A stretch of DNA of 64,000 nucleotides, taken from contig CM068831.1 in the NCBI GenBank assembly GCA_028554795.2, positions 38,956,903 through 39,020,902 on the forward strand. Reading direction: 5' to 3'. Source of the stretch: Sinohyriopsis cumingii (taxonomy: Eukaryota > Mollusca > Bivalvia > Unionida > Unionidae). Positions 1-64,000 of this stretch are shown in pieces (the stretch's first letter is position 1; every line of letters begins with the position of its first letter). The translations under genes and the position numbers were made by a program. The notes below the pieces were generated by a model, which was not told the DNA's origin, made no database searches, and saw nothing but the letters and a program-made list of their open reading frames with translations.

Positions 1-422
1 AATGGCCATTAGTGAAACTGAAGCCACTGAAGTTCATGTCTGTTATTTCATTAAAAATGGAAGTCTTATTAGAAAATGGATACCTGCAAATGGAACACAT
101 AAGCATGATATAGCTTGAATTGTTCCTCAGAGGTGGCATTGTTTGTTAGTGCTTTATAATCAGAGACAAGACGAATGCATATTGTAATGTTTTGTATTGA
201 ACTGTAGTTCCGAAGTTTTACAGACAGGAAATACTTTGTCTGGCCCATGAAACTCATTTGGCTGGTCATTTTGGGATTAATAAGACTTATCAGAATATCT
301 TGACTCACTTTTATTGGCCAAAAATCAAAAATGATGTTTGTAAATACTGTTGATATTGTCATACTTATTAAATGGTAGGAAAATACAATCAGAAGATATT
401 TATGGCTCCTATTCATGCACTG
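1..422 (+). mobile_element. Ty3/Gypsy relic, integrase zinc-binding part (5' side cut by window start)
   Basis: Right-hand part of a decayed Ty3/Gypsy pol. The linker reads YFIKNGSLIRKW just before 80, and the H2C2 zinc-binding domain of integrase follows at about 205-420. That domain shows AHE, AGHFG, FYWPKI and a C-x2-C pair, the usual His/His/Cys/Cys pattern. A stop interrupts the cysteine region near 350 and another lies near 370. A 100-bp foreign segment (94-193) separates linker and zinc finger. No DDE catalytic core is recognisable after 422. The full left part is visible in the next copy (from 20076). Confidence 0.85.
94..193 (+). repeat. 100-bp inverted-repeat arm (right arm)
   Basis: This 100-bp segment is the exact reverse complement of 19973-20072, and corresponds to 20728-20827 in the next copy. 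It sits inside the Gypsy reading frame, after the K-W-I-P-A-N-G linker and before V-V-P-K-F-Y, where related Gypsy proteins have only a few residues. I read it as an insertion. The reverse strand encodes N-A-T-S-E-E-Q-F-K-L, also seen from the 31-bp core at 19688-19718. Confidence 0.9.
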
Positions 423-2153
423 TAAGTTGCACGACTGATTCCACTGGGAGTTGATGTCTGGGGTCTAAGAAAGGGAATGTATTTGATACATTCACTAACA
501 AATATGGCACTTGATGATATTCTGTCTTTTGCCTAATTCGATGGCATCGACGACATGCATTAGTCCACAACTACAAATTTAAACGACGTTTGGAGCGATG
601 CTCAAAGAAAGGCAACTTAAGATAATATATGGCTCGTGTATTCTGTATTGATACTGTGATTGTATCCTACGATTATTTTGAATATTATCTGCCATGAAAA
701 TACAAATTAACAGGTCACAAACATTTAAGAAAACTAAAACTGCTTTAGCTGACAACTGATATCGTAATATATTGTTGGATATATGATCCAACGACTGAAA
801 TGAGCTAATGCAGCTATAAATTCGATACAGTACACATAAATCCCTCTTGGCTTGCTTCACATCCCGACCCAGTTAGGTCACGCATTTAAAATGAAATAAT
901 CCGATAGACGAATGAAAAGCATTCTAGACGAGATGAAAATGTTGACAAAATATATGCACACTTGTATAGAAAACAAAGTCGAAAATAATATTTATTAAGG
1001 CACGCTGAAACAAGTCCACAAGTAACGACAAGGCACCAAACATGTATGCACTAGTAATGTTTGAAAGTTTAACTCTGCATTAGTCTAATGTCGTTATTTG
1101 TCCGTAAACAATTTTATTGTTAGTATTCTTGAGGCTTCAATTTGTATCAGATTATGAGCAATATTTATTTATAAGCTTTTATTGCAAAGTCATCAAAGAC
1201 GAACAATAAACGACTAATAAATATGCACAATCACTAGACTTTATATAGTCTGACTGGCAAGGCATCCTTTCTCTCCTTAGGTTGTATTTCAAACATGATT
1301 GCAATTTTATTAGTGTGGCTCATTTGACAAACTCTGTAATCTCCGTCATTATCAGTTGTATCAGTTGTCTATACATATAATCTTGAGCTTTAAGGACCAA
1401 ATTGTCGAGGACACTTAAGAGACGCTTTAGCATGAAAATACACGACTTTTATTAACCCTTTGGTCGTAAACGTGCGCTGTAACGAGCTACTAAACACGCT
1501 CATGGCATGACTTGAGATGGCTTCTTCCAGGGAAACTAACAAAGTTTGAATATTTCTTTCATTCGTCTTCGTGTGATTGTATTTACATTTTAGGGATAGG
1601 AAGGTAACAGGAAATATTAAGACAAAAGAGAAGTGTGCTTTCGAGAGCAAGATGTTTAAAGTACATGTGTTAATGTGTGTGCAAATTATAGACCAAATTC
1701 AATAATCTTCGGAACCATGGAGACAAAGGAAAAGCTGTTCAGTAATGAAGATGCTGTATAAGCAGAAACGGATAGCCATAATTATGAAGACTTTTTTTTA
1801 AAAAAATCTGAATGTATTAAACATTAAAAGCATCATCCTTGATTCATCCTGCAATCAGATCAGAAGTGTTTGAAAAAGCGATAATAAACAATGAAAGCAC
1901 ATTTTCTCATTACCTTCAATAGGTGGAATGTAGGAAAATATTGTGGGAAAACCCGCCAAGCAAGCAAGTCAAACTTTAATTCTCTGGCAACTTGATCAGT
2001 AGACGCCCGGATAAAATAATTTAATTAGTATCATAATGTATATTTTATGAAAAATTACTTGGTTGGAGTAAGATGTTGAATTTGTTACCTTATCGAGACT
2101 AAAAATGTGTGTGTGGTTTGTATTTCAGAAGTAGAGTTACTAATTGTTCAGTC
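423..2153. other. Unassigned AT-rich DNA between Gypsy and LINE relics
   Basis: I see no recognisable gene. Short minus-strand open frames (579-860 and 1390-1650) have no motif, signal peptide or neighbour support and look like chance frames in AT-rich DNA. A T-run/A-run pair near 1792-1807 varies in length among copies. The stretch may contain the degraded remainder of the Gypsy element, but no integrase core signature was found. Confidence 0.6.
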
Positions 2154-2155
2154 AT

Positions 2156-2186
<31 letters not shown>

Positions 2187-2196
2187 TAATAATAAT
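2154..2196. repeat. (TAA)n microsatellite at LINE 3' end
   Basis: A 43-bp TAA/AAT tract with one CAA interruption. It abuts the 3' end of the minus-strand LINE, whose last bases (minus strand) read gcgctatacaaagtcatt followed by ATT repeats. A 3' microsatellite tail of this kind is usual for L2/CR1-group LINEs. The length is 43 bp in the three copies that include it. Confidence 0.9.
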
Positions 2197-5100
2197 GACT
2201 TTGTATAGCGCCTAATTTTTAGAAGCTCTAAGCGCTTTACAACATTAGATAACACATACAAGATTTTAAAAAAACATAATGATATGATTAACACAAACAC
2301 CATAAAATTAGAAAACATAGAAAAAACATGCGGAGAATATTTAAGGTAGCAAACATTATTAGGTCTTTAAGTTTAATCTTGCAGTCGAAATAAGTGTTTT
2401 GAGAGCACTATTGAATGTGATCACTGTGTCTTTGTGTCTAAGTTCATTGGGCAATTCATTCCACGTTGCTGGGCCCTGGTATGCAAAAGAACGCTGTCCA
2501 TATGACTTTGTTTTCATAGCGGGAATAACGAGTATACGATTGTCAGAAGAGGAGCGTAAGTATCTTGCTGGTGTGTACACATGGGTGAGGTCGCATAGGT
2601 ATGTTGGACTAGAGTCCGTCAGTGAAAAGAAGCACAGAGAACAATTTTGTGTTTGATTCTGGATCGAATGGATAGCCAGTGTAGGGTACAGAGCAGCGGG
2701 GAGGTGTGCTGTGATCGTGGTACTCTAAGTATGATCCGAGCAGCTGTGTTTTGAACTTTTTGAAATTTTTGAAATAGATATTGTGATGAACCAGACAGAA
2801 CTGAGTTACAATAATCCAGTCTTGAAAGTACTAATGAACACACAAGTGTTTTAGTGGCATCAACTGAAAGATATTTGCGAATGGAGCTGATGCGTCTCAG
2901 CTCAAGATATGCAGCCTTGCATATGTTCATGACATGTTGGTGCAATGTGAGAGTACTGTCCAGAGTAACACCTAGGTTTCGTACTGATTGTGTGAATTTA
3001 ATGTTGGTGTTGCTGATATTTATTGTTTGAGGTAAAGGATGTGAATGAGAACGTCTTTGTGTTGTAATCAGAATGGCCTCAGTTTTATCATCATTCATCT
3101 GCAGCTCGTTACATGTCATTCATGATTTCATATCAGAAATGCACCTCTCTACACCTTGGATGGTAGCATCAACTTCAGTTGGGTGGCTAGATTTTTATAT
3201 TTGGGTGTCATCAGCGTACAATTGGTGAGATACTGGATGATGATCTATGACACTTGAGAGCGGAAGAGTGTATAAAATGAAGATAACAGTTCCCTTGTGG
3301 AACACCACAACATGGATCAACTGTGCATGGGGTGTATTCCATTTGCAGACACAATTTGTGTCCTGTTGACCAAGTAGGACTTGAACCACGGTAAGGATGT
3401 TATCATGAATGCCAAATACATGCTGAAGACCGTGAAGTAAAATATCATGGTCTATTGTGTCAAATATTGTAGAAGTGTTCTCCATGGTATAGCAGTGTTG
3501 GGGACCAGCTTCGCACTGCTAAAAATCAAGGAGGGTGAGAACTGTAATCTTTCTGCTATCCAAAGCAGAGAGAATGTCATTAACTACTTTTAGAAGAGTA
3601 GTTTCAGTACTGTGGCAAGGGAGATATGCAGATTGTACATTGCTAAGAAGACTATTTTGAAGTCAGATGAGAACCAAGCTGGGATAGAACAACCTTTTCT
3701 AAGATTTTTGATATGAATGGGAGATTAGAATCTGGGCGATAGTTCTTTAAATCGTTATGGTCTAGTGTTGGTTTCTTCAGCAGAGGCTTTACAATGGCAG
3801 TTTTGAAAAATGATGGGTATTCCCCTGATGAGAGAGAGGTATTAATAACATCAGTAACATCTAAGCACTAAAGCCCCAGTGATGTTGGAATTGGATCAAG
3901 TTCACATGACTTAGGTGCACTCGTCATCAGGATTGTACGTACGAAATCCATAGAGACAGGTTCACATGCCGTTAATGGTTGCCGCTCAAATTCTGTATCG
4001 CAACTGTATGGTGACGACGAGTCAATTGAAATTGTGGTGTAAAGTTTATCTCTAATGGTTTGTACTTTGTCACGGAAGAAATTTGCAAAGAGAGAAGGTA
4101 TTTGGAAGTGGTGTAGATTTGTTCCTCTGCCATTAGCTTCTTAGTAATCTCGATGAGCTCTTTGCAGTTGGAACTTTCCATGATCTTAGTAGTGTAGTGG
4201 GCTGATTTCGCTGCATGGACTATATTTGTGACATTCTTCTCTTTTAGCAGTGCGAAGCTGGTCCCCAACACTGCTATACCATGGAGAACACTTCTGAATT
4301 GATACTCTGCACTTGGTAGCTGGGGCATGTTTGTCGAGCAATGAACGCAGACAGTTATCGAGTTGTTCTGCGGTAGGAGGTAAGCAAGTTGTGAGGTTAG
4401 CTTGGATGTCGTGCATTAGTTTGGTTCTATTTATCATACAGAGATTTCTCTTAGTAGCAGATAAAGGTGGAGGGTTAGGGACTGATACGTCAAGATGGCA
4501 TATAATGCAGAGGTGATGTGATGCAAAGTTCATAGGATACCAGGGAGGACCGTAGAATGTTATCATCAGGTCTATGAAGAATCCAGTCTAAAATGTGACC
4601 ATGTTTATGGGTGGGTTGGTTAACTGGGTGGGTTGGTTAACTGACTGTTTGAGATTGAAGCCATTAATGGAATCTATGAGTTTTGATGTGTTTGGGTTCC
4701 CGGAACAGTCAAAGTGAAAATTGAAATCTCCAAGAATAATCAGGTTGCCACCTATAGAATTTCCATACTCCAGAAGATTCGGAAACTGCTCCAAAAAGTG
4801 AGATTCAGTCATCTTGTTTTTTCTACTAGGAGGAGGGCAGTATAGGCAGAAAATATGGACTGACCTTTGCTCCAGTGTGAGTGTGGTTTGGACTAGTTCC
4901 AACAATGTGTGGTCGAAATTGAATGTTGTGGTGTGGTTAAGACGTTTGATCATGGAGTTCTTTGTGATGATAGCAATTCCAATTACGCATGAGTTACGTG
5001 GAAACGACCTGATGGAGTAACCAGTGGGTGTTAGATCCGCACACTTGGGCTCATTTCCTGATGTTTTTAGCCATGTTTCTGTCAGGAAAAAGACGTCAAT

Positions 5101-5700
5101 ATTCTGGTCGTTGATAAAATTAACTATTCTGTGCGCTTTTGCGGTGGTCCTACTTTTCGGGCATTGAACAATGCAATTCGCAGAGGTATCTCTCGGATAG
5201 TTGACACGAAGGTTGACGAATTAATAGGGATTTTAATTAGGTTATCTAAATTAACAGTCGAATTTTTAAATTGTCGAGCCGGAAAGGGCATAAGGGAGAT
5301 AACTGGAATACTTCTTCCTGTTCTACGCCGGCCAACTTTGAAACAACTTTTCTCTTTTCGCTTCTTTTTACATTTAGGTAATGATGGATGCAGTCCCAGT
5401 TCGTTTAGTCTAGAGCACAATGTAGTGTGGAGAGCCAAGGAGTGGTCATTTAAAGCAATTAATGAGGGTCCATCAAAGCATAAACGGGTTGACTGGTGAG
5501 TATCACGTGATGGCGGTTTGTTCAAATGGAAGTTGTAGTAGTGGAGCAAGACAGCTGAGAAAAAGTCTAATTGTTCTCGTTTCCAAAACAAGGAGATGAA
5601 GAAACACATACGAACTGAACAGCCAATACATAATGAACACAGAAACGCAGACGAAGACAGCCACCGAGCACAAATATCATGAAAACGGCACAAAAACGGA
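2197..5700 (-). mobile_element. Decayed L2/CR1-like non-LTR retrotransposon (LINE)
   Basis: Read on the minus strand. The endonuclease (EEP/APE family) starts with A-L-F-N-A-R near 5150-5180, then F-L-T-E-T-W-L near 5069-5092, then L-G-D-F-N-F-H-F-D near 4708-4736. The catalytic S-D-H is degraded to S-H-H at about 4513-4521. A linker contains K-H-A-P-A-T-K and P-W-Y-S (about 4250-4330). Reverse transcriptase follows: N-Y-R-P near 3735, F-D-T-I-D-H-D near 3440-3465, Y-A-D-D-T-Q-I at 3195-3215. The C-terminal region (L-D-Y-C-N-S-V-L-S-G) lies within 2619-3119 and the last coding block is 2359-2580. Frames shift repeatedly and stops are present, so it is dead. The 5' end is approximate; upstream sequence merges with a SINE. 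L2 versus CR1 or Rex1 needs a phylogeny. Confidence 0.9.
3471..3524. repeat. 54-bp inverted copy of LINE segment 4242-4295
   Basis: 3471-3524 is the exact reverse complement of 4242-4295, which on the minus strand encodes C-S-P-W-Y-S-S-V-G-D-Q-L-R-T-A-K of the LINE. The inverted copy sits between the reverse transcriptase blocks V-L-T-L-L-D and T-I-F-D-T-I-D-H-D, where related LINEs have only a few residues. It looks like a templated insertion or replacement that broke the frame. The arms are 717 bp apart. Confidence 0.92.
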
Positions 5701-5739
5701 ACAGCTGCATCAAGCCGGTTAAGCAATAGCGGCCATCTT

Positions 5740-6022
5740 TGTGATATCACTAATATGTATACAGCATGACAGTTTATCGTGTTATCTAGCATTGGGGCAT
5801 CATGCCACAGACATGTATTATGTCCCACCCAGTCACATTATCCTGACACCAGACCAACCAGTCCTAACACTAACTTCTTAACGCTGAGCATCTTGCAGGG
5901 CAGATGCTAGTACCGTCTCTGCTAGTACCGTATCTGGTATGACTCGGCCGCAATTCCAACTCACGACCTCCGGCGCCGAGGAGGACGCTCTAACCACAAT
6001 GCCACCGGAGAGGTCCCCGAGA
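5740..6022 (-). mobile_element. tRNA-derived SINE, fused to LINE 5' side
   Basis: On the minus strand a tRNA-like head starts near 6015. An A-box-like tggcattgtgg is the complement of 5994-6004, and a B-box-like gttggaattgcgg is the complement of 5948-5960, about 34 nt apart as in tRNAs. The body downstream contains ggactggttggtctggtgtc and gtgactgggtggga (about 5815-5870), which resemble a conserved SINE central domain seen in mollusc genomes (recollection, not searched). A short duplication, gctagtaccgt, occurs twice near 5908-5935. The 3' boundary with the LINE is not sharp; no target-site duplication was found. It is not a functional tRNA gene. Confidence 0.6.
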
Positions 6023-6376
6023 GTAAATAAGTCACTATATATAATGGGCAGTTCTATAGATCTATGGTTAAAATAATGCAATGATAGCACGTCATCACTG
6101 GGTGGATGTCTTTATCGATGAATTCGACAGCCAGGGTGGAAGGCCTCCAAAATGAGCTTCATGACCAGGGCGTCACAAATAATATCGGTGGACTTCGGCT
6201 GTGATCATCCAGTCAGGAGTGGAATGAACTCCTCCAGGCTGTATCTTGCCCTTAACACACCACGTGAAGACATCTAGCATATCGGATCGGTCACATCCCG
6301 GGTCAGCAGTGACCTCACCTGCCGCTGCACACCAGGACGAAAGTGACAAGCATGGTGCACCCACTGTCAAATTCAA

Positions 6377-8335
6377 TGGAGAGACAACATCATTATCGGT
6401 ACATGGAACGTTTGAACAGTGAGAGATATGGAAAATTAGAAAAGACTTAGACATGAGTTAGAAAAGGCACTACTGTATCATTATTGGTCTCTGCTACGTG
6501 GCTAGATTAAAACTTTGGCGAAATAAGAACAGAAGAAGGACATAAGCTTCGCTTCAGCCGATGAGGGACAAACACAATCATGGCGTTGTATTTCTTGTGA
6601 ACAGCATAATGTGTTGCTGCCCAGTCTCAAACAGACTTATTACCATCCGTCCGAGGGCGGCTCCCTTTTAATATCACAATTATATTGTGTACCGACGCCT
6701 AACTATGATGAAAGCGAACTGTAGAATGTTATAATCAACTGCAAGATGTCATTGACAAATCGCCCCCCAAAAAAAGATTCGGTTTGTACAAGGAGACTGG
6801 AATGCAAAGGTAGGAGTTGATTCACAGACAAACTGGCAAAGGATTTGTGGACCCTTCTGCAATGTAGAGACAAATGAAAGTGGACTCAGGCTTTTGGACA
6901 TTGCCGCCTACAACAATCTTGTGCTAACCATCACGTTCGGCCCTCACAAAGGATATTGAAGATGGGCCTGGCACGGTCCAAACGGACAATATCACAACCA
7001 GACCGACTCCATCTTGGTGACAAGACGATTCAGCACGGGACTGAATATCGCAATAACGCAACGTTTCCCATGAGCAGATATTGGAATTGATCATGATATA
7101 TTAAAAGTGATCAAAACGCCGTACCAACCAAGAATAACCAATAAGTACGAGAAAAGCACAGGAGTCTAGATAGAAAGACAATGCTTTGAAATCCAAGACA
7201 GTCAAAGCAGAGACGTTAGCACGATGGATACCAGCTGGTGAAAGATCTCACATATCTTAAACAAGTACCACCATCCAAGACAAGTCAGGAAAATGGCCCA
7301 CAGAAGATCAAGAGATCCTCAAACAATTGGCAGAATACTGCTCACAATTTTACAATTATAAAACCCAAGGAGACCCAACAGTATTAAAGCACCTTCCAGC
7401 AAAATAAATTGATGACAACACCATTCTTCGTGAGCAAGGAGAAACTGCAGTTAGGTCAGTAAAGACAGAAAATTCAGCTGGCGTTGACAACATGCCAGCA
7501 GAACTCATTCAAATAGGAAGAGAAAAGATAGTCACTGTCCTAAAAACAATCTGCAACAAGTTATTGCAGACAGTAGAATGACCCAAAACATGTACTCAAC
7601 CTTTGGTCATCGTGCTCCCCAAGAAAGGAAACCTGCAGTTATTTCAAAACCACAACACCGTCAGTCTGATCAGCCGCCCAAGCGAAGTCATGCTGAAGAC
7701 GAAAGACTCAAGCAGAGACTTTTTTGCTGAAGAGCAAGCAGGTTTTCGAGAAATAAGGAGCATAAAGAAACAAATATTCAATATCAGACTCCTTTGAGAG
7801 AAACACTTTTAGCATCAGCAAAATCTGTACCATGCCATCAAAGCTTTCAAGAAGGTCGAACAACAGTTGGAAGTCAAACAGGGTTGCATACTGCCACATA
7901 CACTCCTCAGCAATGTTTTGGAAAGGATCGGAGGAAGAACAACCACCAAACTTCGCTTTACAGATGATAGTGATGGATTAACAGGAGATAAAAAAGAAGT
8001 ACTTTCTGACTTGGGTGACAAACAACACCAATGGTACCAGTGCAGAAATAAAAGTACTTAGACAGAAGCTGGAAACAGTCACAAGTTTCAGGTACTTGTG
8101 AGCTATTATGAAAGATGAGGACTCAAAACTAGAATTACTTAGCAGGATTGCCCGGACAACAGCAGCAATAACAAGCTTGAGGCCAATATGGAAGGATACA
8201 AACATTGCTATTGCTTCCATTGACACTCACATCAGATCTACAGAACAGGATTCATTGAAATGAGATGCTTCCGCAAGATCTTCGGAATCGCATACATTGA
8301 CCATGTATCTAACGCTCAGATAGGCAGAAAATAAA
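6377..8335 (+). mobile_element. Decayed RTE/BovB-like non-LTR retrotransposon (LINE)
   Basis: Endonuclease blocks are I-I-G-T-W-N-V (6392-6412), Y-C-V-P-T-P-N near 6690, G-D-W-N-A-K-V-G (6792-6815) and N-Q-T-D-S-I-L-V near 6995-7020. Reverse transcriptase blocks are V-L-P-K-K-G-N near 7611, A-E-E-Q-A-G-F-R near 7725-7750, V-K-Q-G-C-I-L-P near 7873-7897, and the catalytic box as F-T-D-D at 7957-7968 (usually F-A-D-D). C-terminal blocks T-S-F-R-Y-L (about 8080) and M-R-C-F-R-K-I (about 8259) follow. It ends in an A-rich tail near 8325-8345. At under 2 kb it is much shorter than the usual 3 kb, so internal deletions are present, with many stops. Leader sequence may start upstream, near 6100. Clade assignment rests on motif resemblance. 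Confidence 0.88.
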
Positions 8336-9061
8336 AAAAATAAAAAATCTCGCGCCAAATTAGTAAGGTATCGATTTATATTGAACAAAATCACGGCCAT
8401 TTTTACAAAGGCGTATATAAGGAAATGTTTGTTTGGCTGAATGACATAAGTGCATAATGTGGTGTATTGAATGCATAGTTTTGGCTATAAAATATAATTA
8501 AATTTTGCTAGTACACTTTGGAGTGCGATAATCACTAGTATTAAGCAGAAGTGAATGCCTCAGGACTACCTTCTTTCTTACAATTTACTACTGTTTGCAT
8601 AATATTCAGGAATACAATATTCCTTAAGAAAATTATATTAGATATTTATACCGGAAATGTTGTTATCCACGTTTTCTAACATGAGACATTACAGAAAATT
8701 CTCAGATAGTATTGACAGATTGTGTTATGTAAGAGCTATATTCAATTCATATAGGATGAATCTCTCAATAATAATATTTGGCGAATTCAACCGCATTTTC
8801 TAAAGAAAATGCTAGGCACCACAAACTGCACGTTCCTTGGTGAATACATAATGATACACATTTCCTGAAACAACGTAGATGTTACGTATTTTATACTACG
8901 GGATTAGTTAGATCTAGACTGGGGATAAACTATAGTTTTCTTAATACATAATATTTCCTTAGGTGCGATCACTTCTAAATATTATGCGAATTTGTTTCAA
9001 TAAAAAAAACGAAATTCGAAATTGCTTTGTCTATTTGTCTTAACCAAAACATCAGGAAATA
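8336..9061. other. Unassigned AT-rich DNA
   Basis: Begins with the A-rich tail of the RTE-like LINE, then AT-rich sequence with no recognisable coding motif. Small palindromes occur, for example gcattttct/agaaaatgc near 8791-8812. Nothing else supportable was seen. Confidence 0.55.
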
Positions 9062-9241
9062 GTACTACTATGGCTACTGATACAACTGCTACGACAACTA
9101 CCACTATTATAACTCAAAGTGCATTAGAAAATGCTACTTCTACTACAGTTGCTAAATTCCTAAATCATGCACTCATGCTACCATTACTGCAGCGACTACT
9201 ACTGCTGCAACAATCAATATTAATAATACTAATATTACTAT
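9062..9241. repeat. ACT/ACA-rich degenerate trinucleotide tract
   Basis: Interrupted ACT, ACA and GCT trinucleotides dominate. They produce a spurious Thr- then Leu-rich open frame (9022-9243, +) with no domain. I call it simple-sequence DNA, not a gene. Confidence 0.7.
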
Positions 9242-9631
9242 AAGCAAACACATAAAATATTGCACGTTATATTTATTCATGTGTTCAGAAATATATTCCA
9301 GGTTTTCTCTTTGGAATATTCATATCTTGTTTACACTGTGTTAGGAGATTAGATCATGTTCAATATAGTGGCATTTTGCAACACCAGATTAAATAATAAG
9401 TTCAAAATATATATATACACAATATTAAATTTTATAATTGTCTTTACTTTATATAATTTATGTTTGATTTTTTTCAGACGTAATGTCTTTATTATCAGAA
9501 TATAATGGTAAAATACGACATTTTACGTTTTCTTTGTTTATTGTATCACCCAATGAGTACTGATTTTTATTTTCAAATACACGAAATATTGCATTAAATT
9601 CAGTCCAATTCATTTGTAATTAGTAGCACTT

Positions 9632-9745
9632 GAATAATAATAATAATAATAATACTAACAAAAATAATAATAATAATAATAAAACAGCATTAAAAGTACT
9701 ACTACTACTATTGGTACTACTGCTACTACTGTTACTAATAATAAT
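9632..9745. repeat. AAT and ACT trinucleotide microsatellite cluster
   Basis: Two AAT runs (about 9633-9653 and 9663-9681) are followed by an ACT/GCT-rich run to about 9745. On the minus strand this yields a Leu/Ser homopolymer-like open frame (9620-9946) that I do not consider a gene. Confidence 0.85.
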
Positions 9746-11652
9746 ATTATCTAAGAAGATAGTTAATAGTCTTGCAGTGGAACCACTATATATGTGATCA
9801 GCAAAATCTCCAGGATTAGTGAATACATAAAACAGACGTACACTGCACCAAAAATGTGCACCAAATACACAGCTCATTAAAATATTTGTAGAGTTATAAT
9901 TTTGCAGAAGACTAAATATTAAGTGCTGGCTTATAATCGTTTCCATTTAACTGTACTAGTTCAAGCCAACTATTTTCCTAACATAGTACTGTAGCGTCAT
10001 ATGCGGTAGTTAGTTTTATACTCAATATTTATAACATCATATGCCGTATTTCCACTATGATGCTGATAAAAGTAATTGATATATTTCCTGAAATCCTTGA
10101 TCCCAAATCAGATTAAGATACAAAAAAATGAATAGGTTTCCCGAAATCTTTGATTCCCAAACATGTATGTATATTTCAATTTTTTTTAATAAAAAAATCC
10201 AATGCAAACAAATGCCGATAATTCAGCGCAACTAGTTTCGCATTTTATGTATGTATCTTCAGGCACAACATCTTTTGAAATAAATAGATGACGTCTTTAT
10301 ATTTTAAAATATGGTCACATTCTATCAAAATAACAGTAGTAACGGGAGAGTTATTATCACTTCCAAACGAGCAATAGAAACAACAGAAGTCGGACTTAGG
10401 CGCACATATAAATTTAGCCAGTTAAAGCTGATGTTGTAATGTCTATAAGTGTGTCAAAACAAATACCTTCACGTCCTTTTCTGGGTCTTTAGTATCTGTT
10501 AGAAAAGAAACACTACTCAGTGATTGCCAAATTATGTTAAACCATACATTCATTTCCCCAACGGTCGATGGTTTGTGTGTTTGAGTGTGTTTAAGTAACG
10601 TATCCATAATATGAGAAAATAAGACAGATGGACACATAAGTTTCCTTGGAATAGTTTCCTTTGAATCACAATGCAAATGTCATAACACATCACCAAATTC
10701 CATTTTGTCTTTCTTATAATGTCTGTCTCTACCTTTCATTCTCTTCGCATGCATTTTATTCCCTCTTCATTCTCTTTCTGTTACCTTAACGTCTTGTGTC
10801 TAAGACGGGTTTGTATCTTTCTGTTTCTAATTTTGAAGAGTTCTCAACTTCTCGCTTCTTGTGCTTCTTTTTAATAAGCCTTTCAGAAGACCAGTGTCCT
10901 GTAACCTGACAATGATAATACATATTTCTACCTTTGTTCAATTTTCTCTTGTTCTTTCTTTTCATTCAGATGTCGCATCTATTGTGACATTTGCTTCCAG
11001 AGCCCGATGTCAGATCTCGCATCAATCGTGACTTTTATTTCCAGACGAATTGTCCGTATTCTTATTTTAAGTATTCTTCGAATAACTATCTGTAAATCAT
11101 AGAGGGTCGACTTAATTTCACTCTTCCATATTTTCCTTCTTCACAGTCGGAACGCAGATTTAATGTATCTGAGGCAACAGAAAGAGAATTTCACCAGCCA
11201 AAATTCCTAAAACTTGTATTAATCTATCCACACTCACGGTAGTCAGTTGTCAGCAGTATCAAACAACAATGACTACCAAAGCAACATCAACCGGTAATGA
11301 AATTGGACTTAGCTTGAGACATTTATAGCTAATAATACCAAGTCAATAAGTATATAAAGTGTGTTTTTCATGCATAGAAGATGTGAGTGCGTGCGTATAA
11401 ATTAGTCAAATATAATGTTGTAATCAAATTAAAATGATCTCCATAGTCCAGCGAGATCGTGGACGTAGATGCCAAGTGGTGACATAGACGACGACTTTCC
11501 TTGTTTTTGTCCCACGTGCTAACTAAATGTTTAACGCAAGAACATGCCAGCGATGTCGACGATGTGGTGCGTGAAATGAATCAACGTACACTACCTCCTC
11601 GGCCACAAGACAAAGAGAATCCTGATCCAGCAAAGATAAAGTCGCTCAGAAA
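9746..11652. other. Unassigned DNA with two imperfect short direct repeats
   Basis: No gene recognised. One imperfect direct repeat pair of about 27 bp (10084-10110 and 10137-10163) shares tttcc-gaaatc-ttgat-cccaaa. A second pair of 29 bp (10973-11001 and 11017-11045) shares tcgcatc...gtgac...ttccaga. Polypyrimidine-rich DNA fills 10690-10980. A short frame at 11501-11701 overlaps the start of the polymerase relic and may contain its decayed N-terminal part. Confidence 0.6.
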
Positions 11653-20072: not shown

Positions 20073-20075
20073 TTG

Positions 20076-43419: not shown

Positions 43420-43421
43420 AT

Positions 43422-43452
<31 letters not shown>

Positions 43453-46967: not shown

Positions 46968-47006
46968 ACAGCTGCATCAAGCCGGTTAAGCAATAGCGGC
47001 CATCTT

Positions 47007-50898: not shown

Positions 50899-51012
50899 GA
50901 ATAATAATAATAATAATAATACTAACAAAAATAATAATAATAATAATAAAACAGCATTAAAAGTACTACTACTACTATTGGTACTACTGCTACTACTGTT
51001 ACTAATAATAAT
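50899..51012. repeat. AAT/ACT microsatellite cluster, copy C
   Basis: Same composition and apparent repeat number as the other copies. Confidence 0.85.
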
Positions 51013-52894
51013 ATTATCTAAGAAGATAGTTAATAGTCTTGCAGTGGAACCACTATATATGTGATCAGCAAAATCTCCAGGATTAGTGAATACATAAAAC
51101 AGACGTACACTGCACCAAAAATGTGCACCAAATACACAGCTCATTAAAATATTTGTAGAGTTATAATTTTGCAGAAGACTAAATATTAAGTGCTGGCTTA
51201 TAATCGTTTCCATTTAACTGTACTAGTTCAAGCCAACTATTTTCCTAACATAGTACTGTAGCGTCATATGCGGTAGTTAGTTTTATACTCAATATTTATA
51301 ACATCATATGCCGTATTTCCACTATGATGCTGATAAAAGTAATTGATATATTTCCTGAAATCCTTGATCCCAAATCAGATTAAGATACAAAAAAATGACC
51401 AAACATGTATGTATATTTCAATTTTTTTTAATAAAAAAATCCAATGCAAACAAATGCCGATAATTCAGCGCAACTAGTTTCGCATTTTATGTATGTATCT
51501 TCAGGCACAACATCTTTTGAAATAAATAGATGACGTCTTTATATTTTAAAATATGGTCACATTCTATCAAAATAACAGTAGTAACGGGAGAGTTATTATC
51601 ACTTCCAAACGAGCAATAGAAACAACAGAAGTCGGACTTAGGCGCACATATAAATTTAGCCAGTTAAAGCTGATGTTGTAATGTCTATAAGTGTGTCAAA
51701 ACAAATACCTTCACGTCCTTTTCTGGGTCTTTAGTATCTGTTAGAAAAGAAACACTACTCAGTGATTGCCAAATTATGTTAAACCATACATTCATTTCCC
51801 CAACGGTCGATGGTTTGTGTGTTTGAGTGTGTTTAAGTAACGTATCCATAATATGAGAAAATAAGACAGATGGACACATAAGTTTCCTTGGAATAGTTTC
51901 CTTTGAATCACAATGCAAATGTCATAACACATCACCAAATTCCATTTTGTCTTTCTTATAATGTCTGTCTCTACCTTTCATTCTCTTCGCATGCATTTTA
52001 TTCCCTCTTCATTCTCTTTCTGTTACCTTAACGTCTTGTGTCTAAGACGGGTTTGTATCTTTCTGTTTCTAATTTTGAAGAGTTCTCAACTTCTCGCTTC
52101 TTGTGCTTCTTTTTAATAAGCCTTTCAGAAGACCAGTGTCCTGTAACCTGACAATGATAATACATATTTCTACCTTTGTTCAATTTTCTCTTGTTCTTTC
52201 TTTTCATTCAGATGTCGCATCTATTGTGACATTTGCTTCCAGAGCCCGATGTCAGATCTCGCATCAATCGTGACTTTTATTTCCAGACGAATTGTCCGTA
52301 TTCTTATTTTAAGTATTCTTCGAATAACTATCTGTAAATCATAGAGGGTCGACTTAATTTCACTCTTCCATATTTTCCTTCTTCACAGTCGGAACGCAGA
52401 TTTAATGTATCTGAGGCAACAGAAAGAGAATTTCACCAGCCAAAATTCCTAAAACTTGTATTAATCTATCCACACTCACGGTAGTCAGTTGTCAGCAGTA
52501 TCAAACAACAATGACTACCAAAGCAACATCAACCGGTAATGAAATTGGACTTAGCTTGAGACATTTATAGCTAATAATACCAAGTCAATAAGTATATAAA
52601 GTGTGTTTTTCATGCATAGAAGATGTGAGTGCGTGCGTATAAATTAGTCAAATATAATGTTGTAATCAAATTAAAATGATCTCCATAGTCCAGCGAGATC
52701 GTGGACGTAGATGCCAAGTGGTGACATAGACGACGACTTTCCTTGTTTTTGTCCCACGTGCTAACTAAATGTTTAACGCAAGAACATGCCAGCGATGTCG
52801 ACGATGTGGTGCGTGAAATGAATCAACGTACACTACCTCCTCGGCCACAAGACAAAGAGAATCCTGATCCAGCAAAGATAAAGTCGCTCAGAAA
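51013..52894. other. Unassigned DNA with 25-bp deletion, copy C
   Basis: A 25-bp segment present in A (about 10132-10156) and B is missing at about 51398, removing most of the second member of the 27-bp imperfect direct repeat. The rest follows copy A, lacking B's 8-bp insertion. Confidence 0.6.
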
Positions 52895-53796
52895 CTCCAG
52901 AAAATTATTATCATATTTGATAGAGATGCAAAACCTGACCTGACCTGCAGCTAAATTTGACCTGCATCAAATGTGCACCAATGCTTACACCTACAAGATG
53001 AAATTTGCAAGAGGTCTTATTCATGTCTGAAGTGCCACCCTAGAAAACAGCAGATTTAATTACAGACTTGTGTGAATCCATCTTAGTTACAACAAAATTG
53101 CAGTGCCAAGCTAAAGAGGCCAACCCGGGTTTTTCCTCCACCATTAATACTGGCCGCTATGTGTGCTAAAATATGGCGTTAAACCCTACAACAACAACAA
53201 CAACAACTAAAGAGGCCAATTGTTTGAGAATCTCCATCCAGTTTAAAGTCTCCAATTTAGTAGACATGCATAAATCACACGGTTCAAAATAATTACATAC
53301 TTCAACACATTCAACAAACCAGTGACAAGTTTAACATGACCGACGGAACCATTACGCTTTGCATGACCCACGCTTCACCTCCTAGAGAGACTGGGGCACC
53401 TCGCAAGACGAGAACTATACCGCATAATAGAAAACATCATTCACGTTTTCAATTTCTCCGTTGATCATGGGGCTTGTGAAACTTTAATACTGAAAGCAAT
53501 TTTTTCCACTGTCTCTTTCCGATTTTAGACTCCACCGACGATATTGGCGCGAAGAGGAAGGATATGTAGCCTTACAAAGACAGCCGTAAGGATGCTACAA
53601 TCATTGCTCACAATTTCTCTTGATACGACGGAATGTTTCCTTCTGAATCTATTCAAACGATCGCACCGATTATGGTTGGAGCCAGTCTAGTCGAAGTGAA
53701 ATCGCGACAAATGCATTTTAAAGATTTCATGAATTATTTGGCAATGTGTTTGAAAAAAATGACTAAAATATTTGGAATGACACATGGACAGAAGTT
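52895..53796 (+). pseudogene. Family B DNA polymerase relic, copy C
   Basis: In-motif TGA at 53621-53623. This copy matches A at the sites where B differs. Confidence 0.75.
53124..53206 (+). mobile_element. SINE tail with target-site duplication, copy C
   Basis: 83 bp, as in copy A. Duplications are at 53111-53123 and 53207-53219. Confidence 0.82.
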
Positions 53797-55395
53797 TCTT
53801 TCTTTTCTTTTCTTTTTCTATACCTACTTGGTTCCCTCAATCACAATCTGAAATGTTCTTTTTTAGATTTTACCATGGAGGAGTTGTACGAGCAAACATA
53901 CAGACGACGCCCGAGGTTAGACAGACACAGATACTTCTGAATCCACTAGACAATTTCTTTGTATAAAGAACCAATGCAACGCGCTTGCCATGCGATGAGG
54001 ACGAATTTCGAAGAAAAGAAATCAAATACATCCATGTTTGTTCTTTGTATCTTTGAATACTTGGATAGTAAAATACAACGTGACCGTCTAGTTTGTAAAG
54101 CTTCAGATTAACGCAAATAATAATAATTGCGTCCAAACGAACATACCGCACCAGAGGTCTCAAAGTGGTCGATTTTATCAATCGTCATTTTTCAATAAAC
54201 CATCTCACAGGGTCTTTGACTGTATGATTCATAGCTACATTGTTTGCATGCTTTGTAGCACTCTTGAAAGTGAAGACTTATACCAGATTGAATCAATACG
54301 TTTAAACACAACCTGGTTTGACACCTACGACAACACCCCTTAACGATGGGTGTAACATCAGTTAAAGAAATTAATATTTCCTTCAGATTTCTCTGTCGGA
54401 TATCGTTTGTCTGTCGATTTCACTATTCGCTCAAAGAACAAAGAAAACAAAGGTATTTCTATGAATGACTAGTTTAGAATTCGGAATTTACCAATTCTGC
54501 TAACTGCACGCATTTGCAGAGAGTTTGTCAAGATACAAGTGAAACATCATTTGAGGAATTTTTCTATAATTGCTATTTCCACAGTAGATGAAAAGTTATT
54601 CTTGGCAAATACTATCACAGACAGAAAACAACAACGTGAATATGAAGTTTACCACGCTACGGCTTTTGTCCTCACTGTTGCAATAAATTCAGTGGAAGGA
54701 AGTCAATGACAGTGTTGAGTTATTAGAGTATCAAGAACCGTTAACAGAACTGATTCCATCCACGTCTATTCCATTATAGTTTGGACGACGGGTAATTTGC
54801 GTTTTAATGACGGCATTTTCGTCGGATTTCGGTTATCGAAGCGTAATAATTCCAAATTTATTTTCGTAAGTAAGATACGTTGTGTTAAAATAGCGATGAG
54901 CAAACGTTTTCATGCCCATGTTAAGAATACATTCGTCGATCATTAGTTCCGCTTTATACTTATCAAGATGCGTGTATATGCAGTTGTTTATACCAGCAAC
55001 TTTTCCATTGGGAAGATGTACATGACAGGAAATTTTCTGGTGTCGATGCATGGAAGCAAGAAGGAGTTAACTTACAAACACTGAGAGGTGAACATGAGAT
55101 AATGATAAAAGCCGTAGTAGAAAACCCGAAACAGGATCTATTACAAATCCACGAAAGTAATTTCGTACAAATATAAAGGAAATGAGAAGAAAGACAATAC
55201 CGGAGAAATTAGAGACACTAAATTTGTATAAATATAAGAAGACGACCATAGCTTGCACATACATTTAATGGGACAGACATTAAATCACGAACGGAATAAT
55301 ATATGCCGTATGTGTTTTAAATCTTCGAAAGAAAAATGTTTTCTTGTGTTTTGACACCAATATTAGAAATGTTAGTCTAGCTTCAGATGTATTAA
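53797..55395. other. Unassigned DNA between relics, copy C
   Basis: Base 54195 (A) matches B, while 55019 (T) matches A. No gene recognised. Confidence 0.5.
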
Positions 55396-56057
55396 ATGTA
55401 TTTTGCATTTGATAATCTTTTCAGCATTCTCAACGTGTTACTATCGCTGCCTCGTCCTTCAATTCCTCTAGTATCAAACGATAGACAAACATTTAGAAAA
55501 CGTTGGGAGTCCTTGCATATTCGCAATTTCTTTAAAATGTTGATTTATATATCGAGTGGTTCAAACAAACTAGAGCGTTTCATCGAATACAAATCGCATT
55601 TGTCTGATTGTCAAGCGTAAAATACCATGCGTTGTTACAAGGTGAGGTTTGCACTTTCTTTAAATTTCTTTCAATTAAATCGATTTTGTTTACAGAAGTC
55701 ATTTTTCGTGAAGATTTTGGAATCGTGTTTGACTTCAGTCAAACCACATCGTGTCATCTTCGAGGAGATGTTAGAATAAGACGTAGAAGAATAAACCTTG
55801 GTTTAAACGCCACGGACACCATTGTAATGCCAGCACAACAGTTATTTCAAGCACATCCCAAAATCAGTCCCAATGCTCATTATGTGCTATTGTTCAAATA
55901 TGGAAGAAACAGATCACAGGTACATATGTTAGCCAAACAATTGAACCCTATGACTGATCTATGACATTGCAACACCAATGCTTATTTACGCATCGATTTA
56001 GAACCAACCAATTCGCTATTATTTGAGACTACTTTGTACCAATTAGTTACACGTTAA
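55396..56057 (+). pseudogene. Packaging ATPase relic, copy C
   Basis: Blocks and frameshifts are as in copy A. N-A-H-Y block at about 55872-55898; intron-like segment at 55642-55695. Confidence 0.65.
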
Positions 56058-59000
56058 GTGTTAATAATGATGTCCTGTTATTTACATTTCTCCTTTCGCA
56101 TCATTCGGAAGAAAGGAAGAAAATTTAAAATCATCCTACACTTCTTTTTTTTTTTTCTTCTTCAAACGGTAGCCCACACGACCTCCTTTCAATCGCATTC
56201 TCCTGCCAAATTGTGTCGTAGTCCGTATGCCATCCGTTGCATTGAAGGTTCTTGCGCATTTATTAGAAGCTGGTTTCAAGTGTTACGACTGTTTACTTTG
56301 AGATCACGTCAATTACTTTAAAACATAATCAACATACCCAAACTAACAAACCCATTTTGAAGAAAAAACAAAACAAAAAAAAAACAATATGCAAACCAAA
56401 AATCAATTCATTTTTAACTGATGGATGTAATTGTTTATGAGGTGTCATTATTTTGTCCCCTTATATATAGAATCTTAAAAGAAAAAGCTAAATGAAGAAA
56501 AATATGAAAGGTCGCCAAAAAAGGCAACATCCCCACAAACAAAAGAATTGCCGCAGAAAGAAGAAAAGCTCCACGAAGAAAAGGGATAAAACAAATATCT
56601 TGACATAAAAGAGACGTGATGTTGCTACGTCGTGAAAGCACTATAAAACAAACGACGGCATTGACTGATTGTGTCTCCTCCTGCAAGATGTATTTCATCT
56701 TCTCCGTTCATGATCATGCCTGCCAAATCTAATCTAATATCATTGTCCATTGGATGGGAAAATAAAAATTCATTTCTAAATGAACTATTTCTACGGCAGC
56801 GACGACGTCTACTACTGTTCTAGCGGCTGCTAAGACAAACGAAGATAAAGGGCAAGTGCACTACAATGTTTTACAAGAAATGTCACTCCTTTTCTCAACA
56901 CGAGTTTGTAACAATGATTTGCTACACTTAAAAAATTTGTCAAAAGCAAAATGTTTACTATCAATATAAGCTATGTGAAGTGAATTTTCAAACTTACCCA
57001 CTTATCAACTTTATGTTTTATGTTATACGAGATGTTTGCCGTTTATCACACACATATACCTACAACTTTACCAGAAACCATAACTATATACAATCCCCCA
57101 TTTTAAATAGCTTGAAAAAATGGTCACAGAATCTAGCAACCCTTCCTTGCATAACTACCTCGGTGTGTGTATGCAAAAATGAGTAAGTGACAAACATTGT
57201 CGGTTTGGAAACGCAAACCATCAATGTTACAATGCACGATTTCATAACATGATTGTAAATTCACTATAGTATGTTCTGTAATTGTTGAAAATCAGATCAT
57301 ATGCATTAGGTTTCCACACTGCCTGTCGACAATCAAGAAGGAAACAAACATTTACGTTACTCGTTTTGAGTGATTTCATTGCTTTACATGCTATTTACAC
57401 AGTGAGAGAGTTAGAGGAGGTTTTCTTTTCCAGGTCCTTATTCGTTTGAAAAAGGAAAACAACGTCCAACCAAAGTTGTTTTCGATGCAAACTGTGTCAG
57501 TAATATGTTAAAATACGTAACGGAATGTTTGGATAGCTTTGGTTAGAACTTACGTACTGTTTTCACAATCCATCGTGGACCTTTCTAGGAGCAGACAAGC
57601 ACGTGATCTTCTGTTTAGGTCACTGGTCATGGAGTCACGTGCCTCGTCAGTATACATTGTCCCCGATGTTGCCCCCAACACGTGCGATTGTGACTTTGAG
57701 GTGTTTTTAAAAGCCAATTTCATGGCTGTTGACGTACTCTTTTTACAGCCACTTAACGTCGGAGGTACCAACCTGATTGTTTTAGACTACCTCCCGATCC
57801 GCCTTTGTTTTATAATGAATATTGTCCTCGCTAACCACAAGCAGTGCCGCGTCTTTCTGAGAGTATCTACTGGCATAATAGATATGGCCACGGCAAGATA
57901 GTTTCTAAACTAAGCGGCAACTCACAGATATGTCACTTCAAGCAGTGTGCCGGGCGTCGGGCCTACAGCACTTCTATGGACCAGTAAGTGAAATAAATGA
58001 CGGTCAGCTGCTGGCCCAGCAGATGAAATCAATGAGTACTGATATATGAGTTGGACAAAAGTAGATGGTAATCAGTCTTATGAAAGCGGCGCTTAAAGAA
58101 ACGCATATTCTTTACATGTTTATAATGTCTTCTGTGGCCTTAAAACTCTGCACCGATAGCCATTACGTGGTTGTTGAGAAGGTTCAGTTATGTGAATGAT
58201 CGGCAATAGATGTACAGACTCGATTTCCGCTTGGTACTGCCATATAGCAACCGTGAAACATCTCTGATCCATGTGTGGTGTTGATTGTCATCGTAAACAA
58301 AGTATCCGCAGTTTGATGGTTTTAGCCTGACTTGTATCGGAGATGCACACAGGGTAGAGAGCATGAATTCAAGTCATTCATGTTCACCGCGATGGTATGG
58401 TTGAGGTCATCACTTTTGTCAGAGATCCTCATTGGAAACTTCAGTTTGTCAAAGAGAAAGGAATGTCTCATTCAAAATATCCGATGTCGAGTTCATAAGA
58501 ACGGATCTGTTGGAAATCAACTAAATTTGGTGGTGTTAAAGTCATTTGCCATGAAACGGCTTGTACAGCGAAATTATTTTGCTAGGCCGCTAGCCTAAGT
58601 ATTTGTTTAAAACTTTTCTATTCGATCAACAATCTTAGCGATTGTCATGATCATGCTTCAGTATCAGGTCGTCAAGGTCACCAGCCAACTTCATTATACT
58701 TTGCTGGCAGATATGTAAGCGAGCATGTAACCTTAAAGCTAAGGTTAAAGATGACGTCCTTCTTTCAAAAACCCATCCATCAACGACAACTAGGATCAAA
58801 GTAAGCTTATTGCTGCGTGAATTATTCAAATGTAATGCATAGCGGCCTCAAACTCCGAGTCACTCTTAATGTGATACATTGTATGACTCTGTCTAATTAT
58901 GTTTTTAATGATGCGAATAAACCACTTCTACATATATTAAGTTTATGGAGTGCTATTTCATACCAAACAAAGACATTTTGATCATGATTTAATGTTTCAA

Positions 59001-60914
59001 AACTGTAGAATAAATATGTATTTAGCAACGTCAAAATGCTAAGAGTTAAAGACGCCCTTAAGTTTCTACACGTTGTTTTTCAAATCACTTTAGACACTCC
59101 TAGAACTAATTGGTCCTGATGCACAAACAAAGTTAAAGTCTAAAAGGATAGTGAATGTAAGAATTCAAAGAATTCGAGTGTATACAATCGTTATTGTTGC
59201 TTCTCCTTTATAATATTTGTACATTGCAGGTAGGAATATAATAAAATGCCGCGGAAGTGTATTACGATTTATATATGCACAGTAGAGACAGATGTACCAA
59301 CCGCAGATCAGCAACGAAATGATAATTCTAAAACTCGTACGTTGATAGTGTTTGTGCTTTAGCGCAACCCTCACCTAGAATTATGTTGTGCAGTCAAGTT
59401 TCATGATAAGAAATACACAGTCCGATGACACTTCTTTGTGCAGACAAAATGCGCTAATATCTAGTTTGGAGTTCTATTTTTCGACGTACATGGATATTGT
59501 CAATTTGTTGCATAATGCATGCCATAACTAATAGTACATTGTACAGTGCTGTGCTTAAAACAGAAGTATACTAAAAGATGTAACGTTTCGTATTCAGCCG
59601 ATAATGTGGAGAAATTAAAAAAAAAAAAAAGCACTGTTGAATCTGAATCTAATGTTATGCATTCTGTCGCACACACACATACATTCTAAAATACAGCTTG
59701 ATATTATCTACAAATTAAAAAAAAGGTCAGGCATTGGTCTTCTTCCAGTTTTAATAGTATTACCGTTGAAAAATAAAATGGCCCTATTTTGTACAATCGT
59801 GGAGTGCGCCAGCCAAGAATCGATTTCACGTGCATTTTGCAATAACCACTTTGTCTGCTGCAAAAAAAAATGTTTACATCTAAACTCCTCTCACCAAAAA
59901 CTAAGATCCATAATTTTTAAACCATATTGCAAGTGTCCGCTTGAAACAGCAATTGAATTGTGCGCATCGAACTCATGATGAACAGATTATCCTAAGTTTT
60001 AAAATCGATCAGGTCAAACATCTTATTTTATTCAACTTTATACAAGATTATTAATTTAAAAAAAGTTCAAAATGTTATTATCAGTTTAGCGAATAACTTA
60101 TGGATACATAGTATAAATGAGCAATACGTAGTAAAGATGAAAACAATGCATTCTCTTCTTTGATAACCAGCACGTAAAGAGAAAACTTGTATCGGAAATC
60201 ATATCACCTCTAATGGTTAATACATACAGAAAATCGGAGAAAAGGGATGAAATTGTCTCAAAATTAATATAGCATTTTGTTCATATTGTATAATGTATAA
60301 TTTCATTTCAGATTAGTACAGTGCAATATTCATTATCATTTACAAGTGTGACAACTAAATAAATCTTATTGATAATTTTTCTTTAAAAAGTAGGAAACCT
60401 TTCCTCACGGAAAATACATTATTAATTAAATACGTATTTATTAAAAATGGAATCAAAATGTTATATTTTTTCAATAAGTAACATAATGCTTTTCCTGAAA
60501 AGTGTTCCATGCCGAATATGTAGAGATCGAAGAACACAAGATTACAAAACACAAGATTACAGATAAGTTACTAAACATATTGGGTAATAGCAAAGTTATC
60601 ATACAGAACGAAACTGGAAACATGACAATTGTTTTTCTTATTCCATGTATTCGACATCGAACTAGATCATCAGCCAATACATGTAGTTGTTGTAGAATAA
60701 CGATGAATACGACAGGTTACATAATATAACAAACTTAGGTATAGTGGATATCATCGTCATGGATATCGGACTACACATTTTGAACTGTTATCGTGGACAC
60801 AGAGTGATTTAAGTTCACATAACTTTTCCAATTACAACTAATGTGTATGGCATGAGTGACTCACCCATACTACATTCTTCAAGGTTTCGCATTTGTGGGC
60901 TTCATAGAAGAAAA
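56058..60914. other. Unassigned AT-rich stretch with 15-bp deletion, copy C
   Basis: 15 bp (aaggtggccttctct-type) present in A and B are missing at about 56829. The rest follows copy A, including retention of the segment that B lacks near 39629. At about 60315 it has the G seen in B rather than A's A. No gene recognised. Confidence 0.5.
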
Positions 60915-60945
60915 GCTTGAATTGTTCCTCAGAGGTGGCATTGTG
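60915..60945 (+). repeat. 31-bp core, copy C
   Basis: Identical to 19688-19718. Confidence 0.85.
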
Positions 60946-61199
60946 GCGTATCACCTTAGATATACGGTCAAGGACTTTGATGAGTTTCGTTTTGGCCAAG
61001 ACGAATATTTCGTCCTGTCTTTCAAATAATTGAGCTTTGACAAGTAATAAAATTTCCAGTCACATAAACCAGATTGCATCCTAAAGCAGTTTTGCATGAT
61101 GGCTGCAAATCTTCCGCCAGATCATTAATATTTGGGTACAGCTATATATTATAATTCCTCTATGGAGTATTATGAACCATTCATGTCGAAGCTATGATA

Positions 61200-61299
61200 A
61201 AAACATTACAATATGCATTCGTCTTGTCTCTGATTATAAAGCACTAACAAACAATGCCACCTCTGAGGAACAATTCAAGCTATATCATGCTTATGTGTT
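61200..61299 (-). repeat. 100-bp left inverted-repeat arm, copy C
   Basis: Exact inverted partner of 61955-62054. Confidence 0.95.
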
Positions 61300-61302
61300 T
61301 TG

Positions 61303-62283
61303 GCCAATCCCGTCCCTATAAATAATTTAAGTGACACAGGAGCTTCTGAGAGTCTTTATTATCAGGTACTTCTTCTAATGAGTGTTCTTATTCAGGGAGA
61401 AAAGTGCGGCTTTGTTAATATTCACTCTATTGTGTAATTTTGTCATCAGACTTAGTCTTCGGACCCGTGACAGTCGGAACAGTGTTTTACCCGTTGAGGG
61501 CATTTGTTTATCACTTGGCAACGACCCAGCTAGACAAAAGGTTGTGGTTAATTCACTTGTAATTGACAAGACTTGTTTGGATCAGAAAGTCGATCCAACT
61601 GAAAAAGAATTCTCTGTTTTATACCCAGCTTGTGCAGTTACCAGAGAAGAAAGCTTTTGAGAATGATATTGATAAGGAAAGTATTTCTTTATCTGACACA
61701 TGTATTGATAAGGCTTTTGATGAGGTCACTTCACTCCTTGTTTGGATCAATCAAAAGGTATTGATCCCAGTTAAACTACTCATTTTCTTTTCTAAAAAGG
61801 GTGACAAACGACAATCACGGGTCATCGAATACGAAAAAGATCATAAGATCTTTTTGTTTCAAATGGCCATTAGTGAAACTGAAGCCACTGAAGTTCATGT
61901 CTGTTATTTCATTAAAAATGGAAGTCTTATTAGAAAATGGATACCTGCAAATGGAACACATAAGCATGATATAGCTTGAATTGTTCCTCAGAGGTGGCAT
62001 TGTTTGTTAGTGCTTTATAATCAGAGACAAGACGAATGCATATTGTAATGTTTTGTATTGAACTGTAGTTCCGAAGTTTTACAGACAGGAAATACTTTGT
62101 CTGGCCCATGAAACTCATTTGGCTGGTCATTTTGGGATTAATAAGACTTATCAGAATATCTTGACTCACTTTTATTGGCCAAAAATCAAAAATGATGTTT
62201 GTAAATACTGTTGATATTGTCATACTTATTAAATGGTAGGAAAATACAATCAGAAGATATTTATGGCTCCTATTCATGCACTG
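61303..62283 (+). mobile_element. Gypsy protease-integrase relic at the C/D border
   Basis: Protease motif at 61330-61356. It matches the 20076-21056 relic and lacks the extra base and substitutions of the 40707-41688 relic. Confidence 0.85.
61955..62054 (+). repeat. 100-bp right inverted-repeat arm, copy D
   Basis: Identical to the other right arms. Confidence 0.95.
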
Positions 62284-64000
62284 TAAGTTGCACGACTGAT
62301 TCCACTGGGAGTTGATGTCTGGGGTCTAAGAAAGGGAATGTATTTGATACATTCACTAACAAATATGGCACTTGATGATATTCTGTCTTTTGCCTAATTC
62401 GATGGCATCGACGACATGCATTAGTCCACAACTACAAATTTAAACGACGTTTGGAGCGATGCTCAAAGAAAGGCAACTTAAGATAATATATGGCTCGTGT
62501 ATTCTGTATTGATACTGTGATTGTATCCTACGATTATTTTGAATATTATCTGCCATGAAAATACAAATTAACAGGTCACAAACATTTAAGAAAACTAAAA
62601 CTGCTTTAGCTGACAACTGATATCGTAATATATTGTTGGATATATGATCCAACGACTGAAATGAGCTAATGCAGCTATAAATTCGATACAGTACACATAA
62701 ATCCCTCTTGGCTTGCTTCACATCCCGACCCAGTTAGGTCACGCATTTAAAATGAAATAATCCGATAGACGAATGAAAAGCATTCTAGACGAGATGAAAA
62801 TGTTGACAAAATATATGCACACTTGTATAGAAAACAAAGTCGAAAATAATATTTATTAAGGCACGCTGAAACAAGTCCACAAGTAACGACAAGGCACCAA
62901 ACATGTATGCACTAGTAATGTTTGAAAGTTTAACTCTGCATTAGTCTAATGTCGTTATTTGTCCGTAAACAATTTTATTGTTAGTATTCTTGAGGCTTCA
63001 ATTTGTATCAGATTATGAGCAATATTTATTTATAAGCTTTTATTGCAAAGTCATCAAAGACGAACAATAAACGACTAATAAATATGCACAATCACTAGAC
63101 TTTATATAGTCTGACTGGCAAGGCATCCTTTCTCTCCTTAGGTTGTATTTCAAACATGATTGCAATTTTATTAGTGTGGCTCATTTGACAAACTCTGTAA
63201 TCTCCGTCATTATCAGTTGTATCAGTTGTCTATACATATAATCTTGAGCTTTAAGGACCAAATTGTCGAGGACACTTAAGAGACGCTTTAGCATGAAAAT
63301 ACACGACTTTTATTAACCCTTTGGTCGTAAACGTGCGCTGTAACGAGCTACTAAACACGCTCATGGCATGACTTGAGATGGCTTCTTCCAGGGAAACTAA
63401 CAAAGTTTGAATATTTCTTTCATTCGTCTTCGTGTGATTGTATTTACATTTTAGGGATAGGAAGGTAACAGGAAATATTAAGACAAAAGAGAAGTGTGCT
63501 TTCGAGAGCAAGATGTTTAAAGTACATGTGTTAATGTGTGTGCAAATTATAGACCAAATTCAATAATCTTCGGAACCATGGAGACAAAGGAAAAGCTGTT
63601 CAGTAATGAAGATGCTGTATAAGCAGAAACGGATAGCCATAATTATGAAGACTTTTTTTAAAAAAAATCTGAATGTATTAAACATTAAAAGCATCATCCT
63701 TGATTCATCCTGCAATCAGATCAGAAGTGTTTGAAAAAGCGATAATAAACAATGAAAGCACATTTTCTCATTACCTTCAATAGGTGGAATGTAGGAAAAT
63801 ATTGTGGGAAAACCCGCCAAGCAAGCAAGTCAAACTTTAATTCTCTGGCAACTTGATCAGTAGACGCCCGGATAAAATAATTTAATTAGTATCATAATGT
63901 ATATTTTATGAAAAATTACTTGGTTGGAGTAAGATGTTGAATTTGTTACCTTATCGAGACTAAAAATGTGTGTGTGGTTTGTATTTCAGAAGTAGAGTTA
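62284..64000. other. Unassigned AT-rich DNA, copy D (cut by window end)
   Basis: Counterpart of 423-2139. No gene recognised. The window ends about 15 bp before the expected (TAA)n tract. Confidence 0.6.

Follow-up and report, generated by a model that had tools for sequence, protein, structure and literature searches.

The systems closest to the locus described here are known from the human genome, where a survey, in the excerpted text, classes 17 arrays as gene-free, transposon-bearing megasatellites, presumes unequal crossing over to be the cause of their expansion and, among large arrays of all classes, records some units that reach 40 kb (PMC2588610). Against these figures, the initial annotation of the present locus overstated the case in calling its unit size and identity uncommon. 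The likeness to the human gene-free arrays lies in large head-to-tail units, transposons at the same place in each unit and an absence of genes (here as far as Pfam reaches), but the organism is a different one, probably an invertebrate, and the gene-free examples given in that text, with units of 1.9, 2.5, 3, 3.5, 5.4 and about 6 kb, are smaller than the 20.6 kb found here (PMC2588610). The human 12-kb array at 8q21.2 also combines a large unit with a long array that is poorly resolved in the reference assembly, although, as the excerpt describes it, each unit carries one gene, whereas no gene was recognized in the unit analyzed here (PMC2588610). A second related system is the conversion of "transposon graveyards" to satellites, reported in the excerpted source to include shuffled loci in the bivalve Crassostrea gigas (PMC12628747). 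There, as here, decayed transposon DNA has become tandem, and both unequal crossing over and rolling circles are discussed; in that text, however, the satellites derive from transposon parts such as Helitron components, whereas the present unit is a whole segment with several elements (PMC12628747).

The window, by which we mean the whole 64,000-nt stretch analyzed, consists of head-to-tail copies of one 20.6-kb segment, with no spacer between copies and no unique flank inside its limits. Units start at positions 1, 20635, 41267 and 61862, giving exact periods of 20634, 20632 and 20595 bp. Unit 1 (1..20634, plus strand) has its phase from the initial annotation, and the true founding junction may lie elsewhere; units 2 (20635..41266, plus strand) and 3 (41267..61861, plus strand) were delimited by k-mer periodicity, copy starts and unit alignment, and the 2139 bp that form the start of unit 4 (61862..64000, plus strand) by copy starts and unit alignment. 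When the window is broken into distinct 24-mers, 17,417 of these are present three times, 1,938 four times and 1,368 once, and k-mers recur chiefly at distances of about 20.6, 41.2 and 61.9 kb. Tandem repetition by chance is excluded. The k-mer distances, exact copy starts and unit alignment bear out the head-to-tail macrosatellite proposed in the initial annotation, whose three unit lengths, partial fourth unit and lack of spacers and of unique flanks in the window were exact. Tandem units above 2 kb arranged head to tail without spacers, as in a megasatellite, are thus what the window contains, and its base counts give a G+C content of 36.8%.

Part of the unit can be assigned to transposons. 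A LINE relic on the minus strand (2156..5840, also found in units 2 and 3) gave matches above cut-off to Pfam PF03372 and PF14529; its borders are approximate, the 5′ border and the 3′ end having been placed by reading, the latter at an AAT repeat. Of 80 candidates compared with its endonuclease ORF (4588-5220), 32 are homologues at E 0.001 or better, the one from Patella caerulea with 42% identity over 77% of the query, and for a further LINE ORF (2619-3119) 1314 of 1336 candidates are homologues. This Patella homologue and the kinds of element present tentatively suggest a mollusc or some other invertebrate as the source. A Ty3/gypsy-like pol fragment on the plus strand (20096..21034, borders by reading) crosses the drawn border between units 1 and 2 and carries an integrase zinc-binding domain (PF17921, E 1.6e-16, plus strand, unit positions 207-374), together with a stretch that we take to be protease-like. 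For the gypsy-like ORF at 20336-20752, no homologue was found among 16 candidates. From its peptides we presume a second LINE-like relic at 6430..8330 (plus strand, approximate borders), three ORFs of which gave no fitting Pfam match. Likewise, 5830..6030 on the minus strand is presumably a tRNA-derived SINE-like stretch, in which ARAGORN found no tRNA gene and Rfam gave no match, and we assume a SINE-like tail near 11.9 kb. The AAT microsatellite (2156-2196), where the LINE relic has its 3′ end, reads like a LINE tail, and another microsatellite, of the TACTACTGC type, lies at 9633-9737.

The three larger relics, of which two have domain matches and one is presumed from its peptides, add up to 6,525 bp within borders that are approximate; once the other presumed elements are counted, assignments cover about a third of the unit, and most of 8.3-20.1 kb is without assignment. 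The initial description of the unit as made of nested transposon relics therefore stands for the LINE and Ty3/gypsy-like fragments, which have domain matches, but does not extend to the roughly 12 kb left without assignment. CpG observed/expected is 0.56 in the three larger relics versus 0.92 over 13,400 bp without assignment, a contrast that would fit old, once-methylated elements within a young array. The relics occupy equal places in every full unit, as judged from the domains in unit 1 and a gap-poor alignment, which argues that their insertion preceded the amplification.

Short inverted repeats also recur with the unit. An exact 100-bp inverted repeat has its arms at 19973-20072 and 20728-20827 (span 19973..20827, 655 bp between the arms), with full pairs again in each period, and its 31-bp core is also present at 19687-19717; exact repeats in five random sequences of equal first-order make-up were at most 20 bp long. 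One possibility is that the repeat and its core represent a chain of short copied insertions. By reading, one arm of the repeat breaks into the gypsy-like fragment. Inside the LINE relic are exact 54-bp inverted copies at 3471-3524 and 4242-4295, present in units 2 and 3 as well, of which the second fits the LINE frame by reading and the first interrupts it. Measured between centres, the two copies lie about 771 bp apart, a distance similar to the 755 bp of the 100-bp repeat.

In six frames of unit 1, Pfam returned only the LINE endonuclease and integrase zinc-binding domains above cut-off and no host domain, a search that short exons and domainless genes escape; the initial claim that no host gene is present is supported as far as Pfam on these frames and Rfam reach. 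We set aside a hidden host gene, for which there were only matches below the Pfam cut-off (e.g. DUF7577, E 0.0036, and DUF3817, E 0.0093). No Rfam family at gathering score and no tRNA gene by ARAGORN were found in the window, and an array of RNA genes, ribosomal or other, was rejected on these grounds. Pfam on the same six frames found no Helitron Rep or helicase domain. Plasmid DNA (unit 1, "near" mode) and phage DNA (12001-20000, "distant" mode) were also considered and gave no match.

Within the unassigned part, two plus-strand ORF pieces (12382-12609 and 14366-14722) resemble, on our assumption, the type-B DNA polymerase and packaging ATPase of Maverick/Polinton-like elements, and CpG observed/expected is 1.12-1.17 per kb across 12-15 kb. 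The two stretches (about 12.4 and 14.5 kb) had no support from Pfam. Against solved structures, one search gave no match and another gave 13, the best with E 0.39 and most of them replication protein A; tblastn of the 14.5-kb ORF against phages gave no support. In IMG/VR, 6 and 12 stretches fit the two patterns with no tblastn relative among them, and a further search found none. Looser patterns matched 6 and 10 loci, several of which are copies of one another. When 408 ORFs of the unit were compared with these 16 pattern loci by tblastn, three weak alignments were obtained (E 0.003-0.007), none from either Maverick-like stretch, and stop codons lie in the reading frame at the pattern match in 16 of 16 loci. 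These two results indicate that the pattern matches are due to chance. The motifs near 12.4 and 14.5 kb mark at most a candidate relic of a Maverick/Polinton-like element.

An array of this kind might be retained for a function, for instance as a source of anti-transposon small RNAs or as a chromosomal domain. The sole point in the window that favors such a role is that transposon relics lie on both strands, and piRNA clusters are described in the excerpted source as rich in such relics (PMC12628747). Nothing observed, however, indicates a promoter, an RNA gene or selection; the Rfam count is zero and 12 kb of the unit have no assignment. We regard retention for function as highly improbable, and the array presumably has no sequence-specific function.

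The full units differ by substitutions at 0.08-0.25% of aligned positions (44 of 20,615 between units 1 and 2, 17 of 20,594 between units 1 and 3, and 51 of 20,576 between units 2 and 3) and align without a gap above 25 bp. The partial unit 4 has one difference from unit 1, one from unit 2 and seven from unit 3 over its 2139 bp. The three-unit alignment has 11 indel groups and 56 substitutions; of the latter, 39 are found in unit 2 alone, 12 in unit 3 alone and five in unit 1 alone. The five private to unit 1 are four transitions and one transversion, none in a homopolymer. Since any two full units are separated by 17 to 51 substitutions, a concatemer of one extrachromosomal circle, whose units should be identical apart from errors, was rejected as a simple reading. 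Among the bases for the array offered in the initial annotation, the linear concatemer of a single circle accordingly fits poorly, and unequal crossing over best fits the patchy divergence described below.

The substitutions are strongly clustered. Fifty of the 56 fall in a divergent block at about 30.8-51.5 kb, one unit in length and set between near-identical units; its limits (outer 30792..51553, inner 30947 and 51398) were taken from alignment columns and defined after the data were seen. Every one of the 12 substitutions private to unit 3 falls within columns 215-9280, and 38 of the 39 private to unit 2 fall within columns 10450-20588, the single exception in the left part lying outside homopolymers. 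A separation this clean occurred in none of 200,000 uniform draws, in a test picked after seeing the data. Inside the block, tracts with limits likewise chosen from the data contain 31 substitutions in 5613 columns, 0 in 3080, 7 in 1646, 8 in 1799, 1 in 6965 and 3 in 1394, so that the block is a mosaic of tracts with 0.2-0.55% divergence and difference-free tracts of 5.2 and 3.1 kb. The largest gap between substitutions is 5197 alignment columns and the second 3081; none of 20,000 uniform draws attained either this largest gap or the sum of squared gaps. The 6965-column tract is able to vary, as four of the six other substitutions (columns 3972, 5058, 6916 and 7214) lie inside it. None of these six substitutions outside the block is in a homopolymer.

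The patchy divergence can be read as the trace of exchange or conversion among lineages of units that differ by about 0.4-0.5%, and, going by the alignment, the patches would have been made by exchange between units. We therefore consider it likely, with good though not full confidence, that the window, which is animal-like DNA, represents part of a young megasatellite, free of recognizable genes, that arose from a segment of decayed transposons and was enlarged and homogenized by unequal exchange and gene conversion. On this reading a segment of about 20.6 kb would have gathered transposons that decayed in place, the transposon-bearing segment would then have been duplicated head to tail, and the array would have grown while unequal exchange and gene conversion between units kept it homogeneous.

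The same patchiness could be produced by switching between two haplotype arrays during assembly, in which case, or if the array is really shorter, the unit number and the divergent block would be artefacts. Such a fault would agree with the start and stop of the block at nearly one phase (columns 10158-10313) and with the 0.4-0.55% difference in the divergent tracts, which is of allelic size. Four of the 11 indel groups (columns 2268, 2269, 14918 and 18406) consist of A or T runs of unequal length and may be errors, and assembly errors are reported for several such human arrays in the excerpted survey (PMC2588610). Yet among the three full units there are three distinct sequences in either half of the period, which exceeds what one single-copy diploid locus can give and speaks against one circle or one such locus having been assembled repeatedly, although a pooled sample, or two haplotype arrays joined together, might also yield units as distinct and patchy as these. 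Moreover, a substitution occurs every 3.5 kb or less, the longest identical runs being 3098 bp (units 1 and 2), 3486 bp (units 1 and 3) and 3347 bp (units 2 and 3), so that ordinary long reads could separate the units. Overall, we judge an assembly fault to be unlikely, and growth by exchange between units remains our preferred reading.

The borders of the block bear on a further explanation, in which extrachromosomal circles of one unit return to the array through homologous recombination, or in which the window itself is a mix of them. The block left by a single crossover of a circle would be exactly one period long and would begin and end at one phase, and the two borders observed share a unit phase within about 155 bp. 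Chance agreement of this kind has a probability of roughly 1-10%, a rough, uncomputed estimate that depends on the tract ends counted. The shared phase may point to the entry of a complete unit, for example as a circle, or to an assembly switch, but it demonstrates neither of the two. Since the block is itself patchy, earlier exchange would be needed too, and we give circle re-entry or a mixture of circles only a slim chance. The specific event, in which a divergent 20.6-kb circle would have integrated through a single homologous crossover near unit phase 10.16-10.31 kb, seems just as doubtful. The indels nearest the borders, an 8-bp insertion at 30947 in unit 2 and a 25-bp deletion at 51398 in unit 3, share almost one unit phase (columns 10134-10320), and a diverged short direct repeat can be read near this phase, at 10085 and 10138.

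The kind of array has already been described in human, and from its sequence the window appears to match the features of gene-free, transposon-bearing megasatellites, the absence of genes holding as far as Pfam reaches. The understanding of such arrays would stay as before. If circle re-entry were true, the sequence alone would record the circle-mediated growth of a megasatellite. If long reads confirm the array, it would be a further large-unit, transposon-bearing megasatellite without recognizable genes, outside the human examples, with variants dense enough to trace exchange between units on single long reads.
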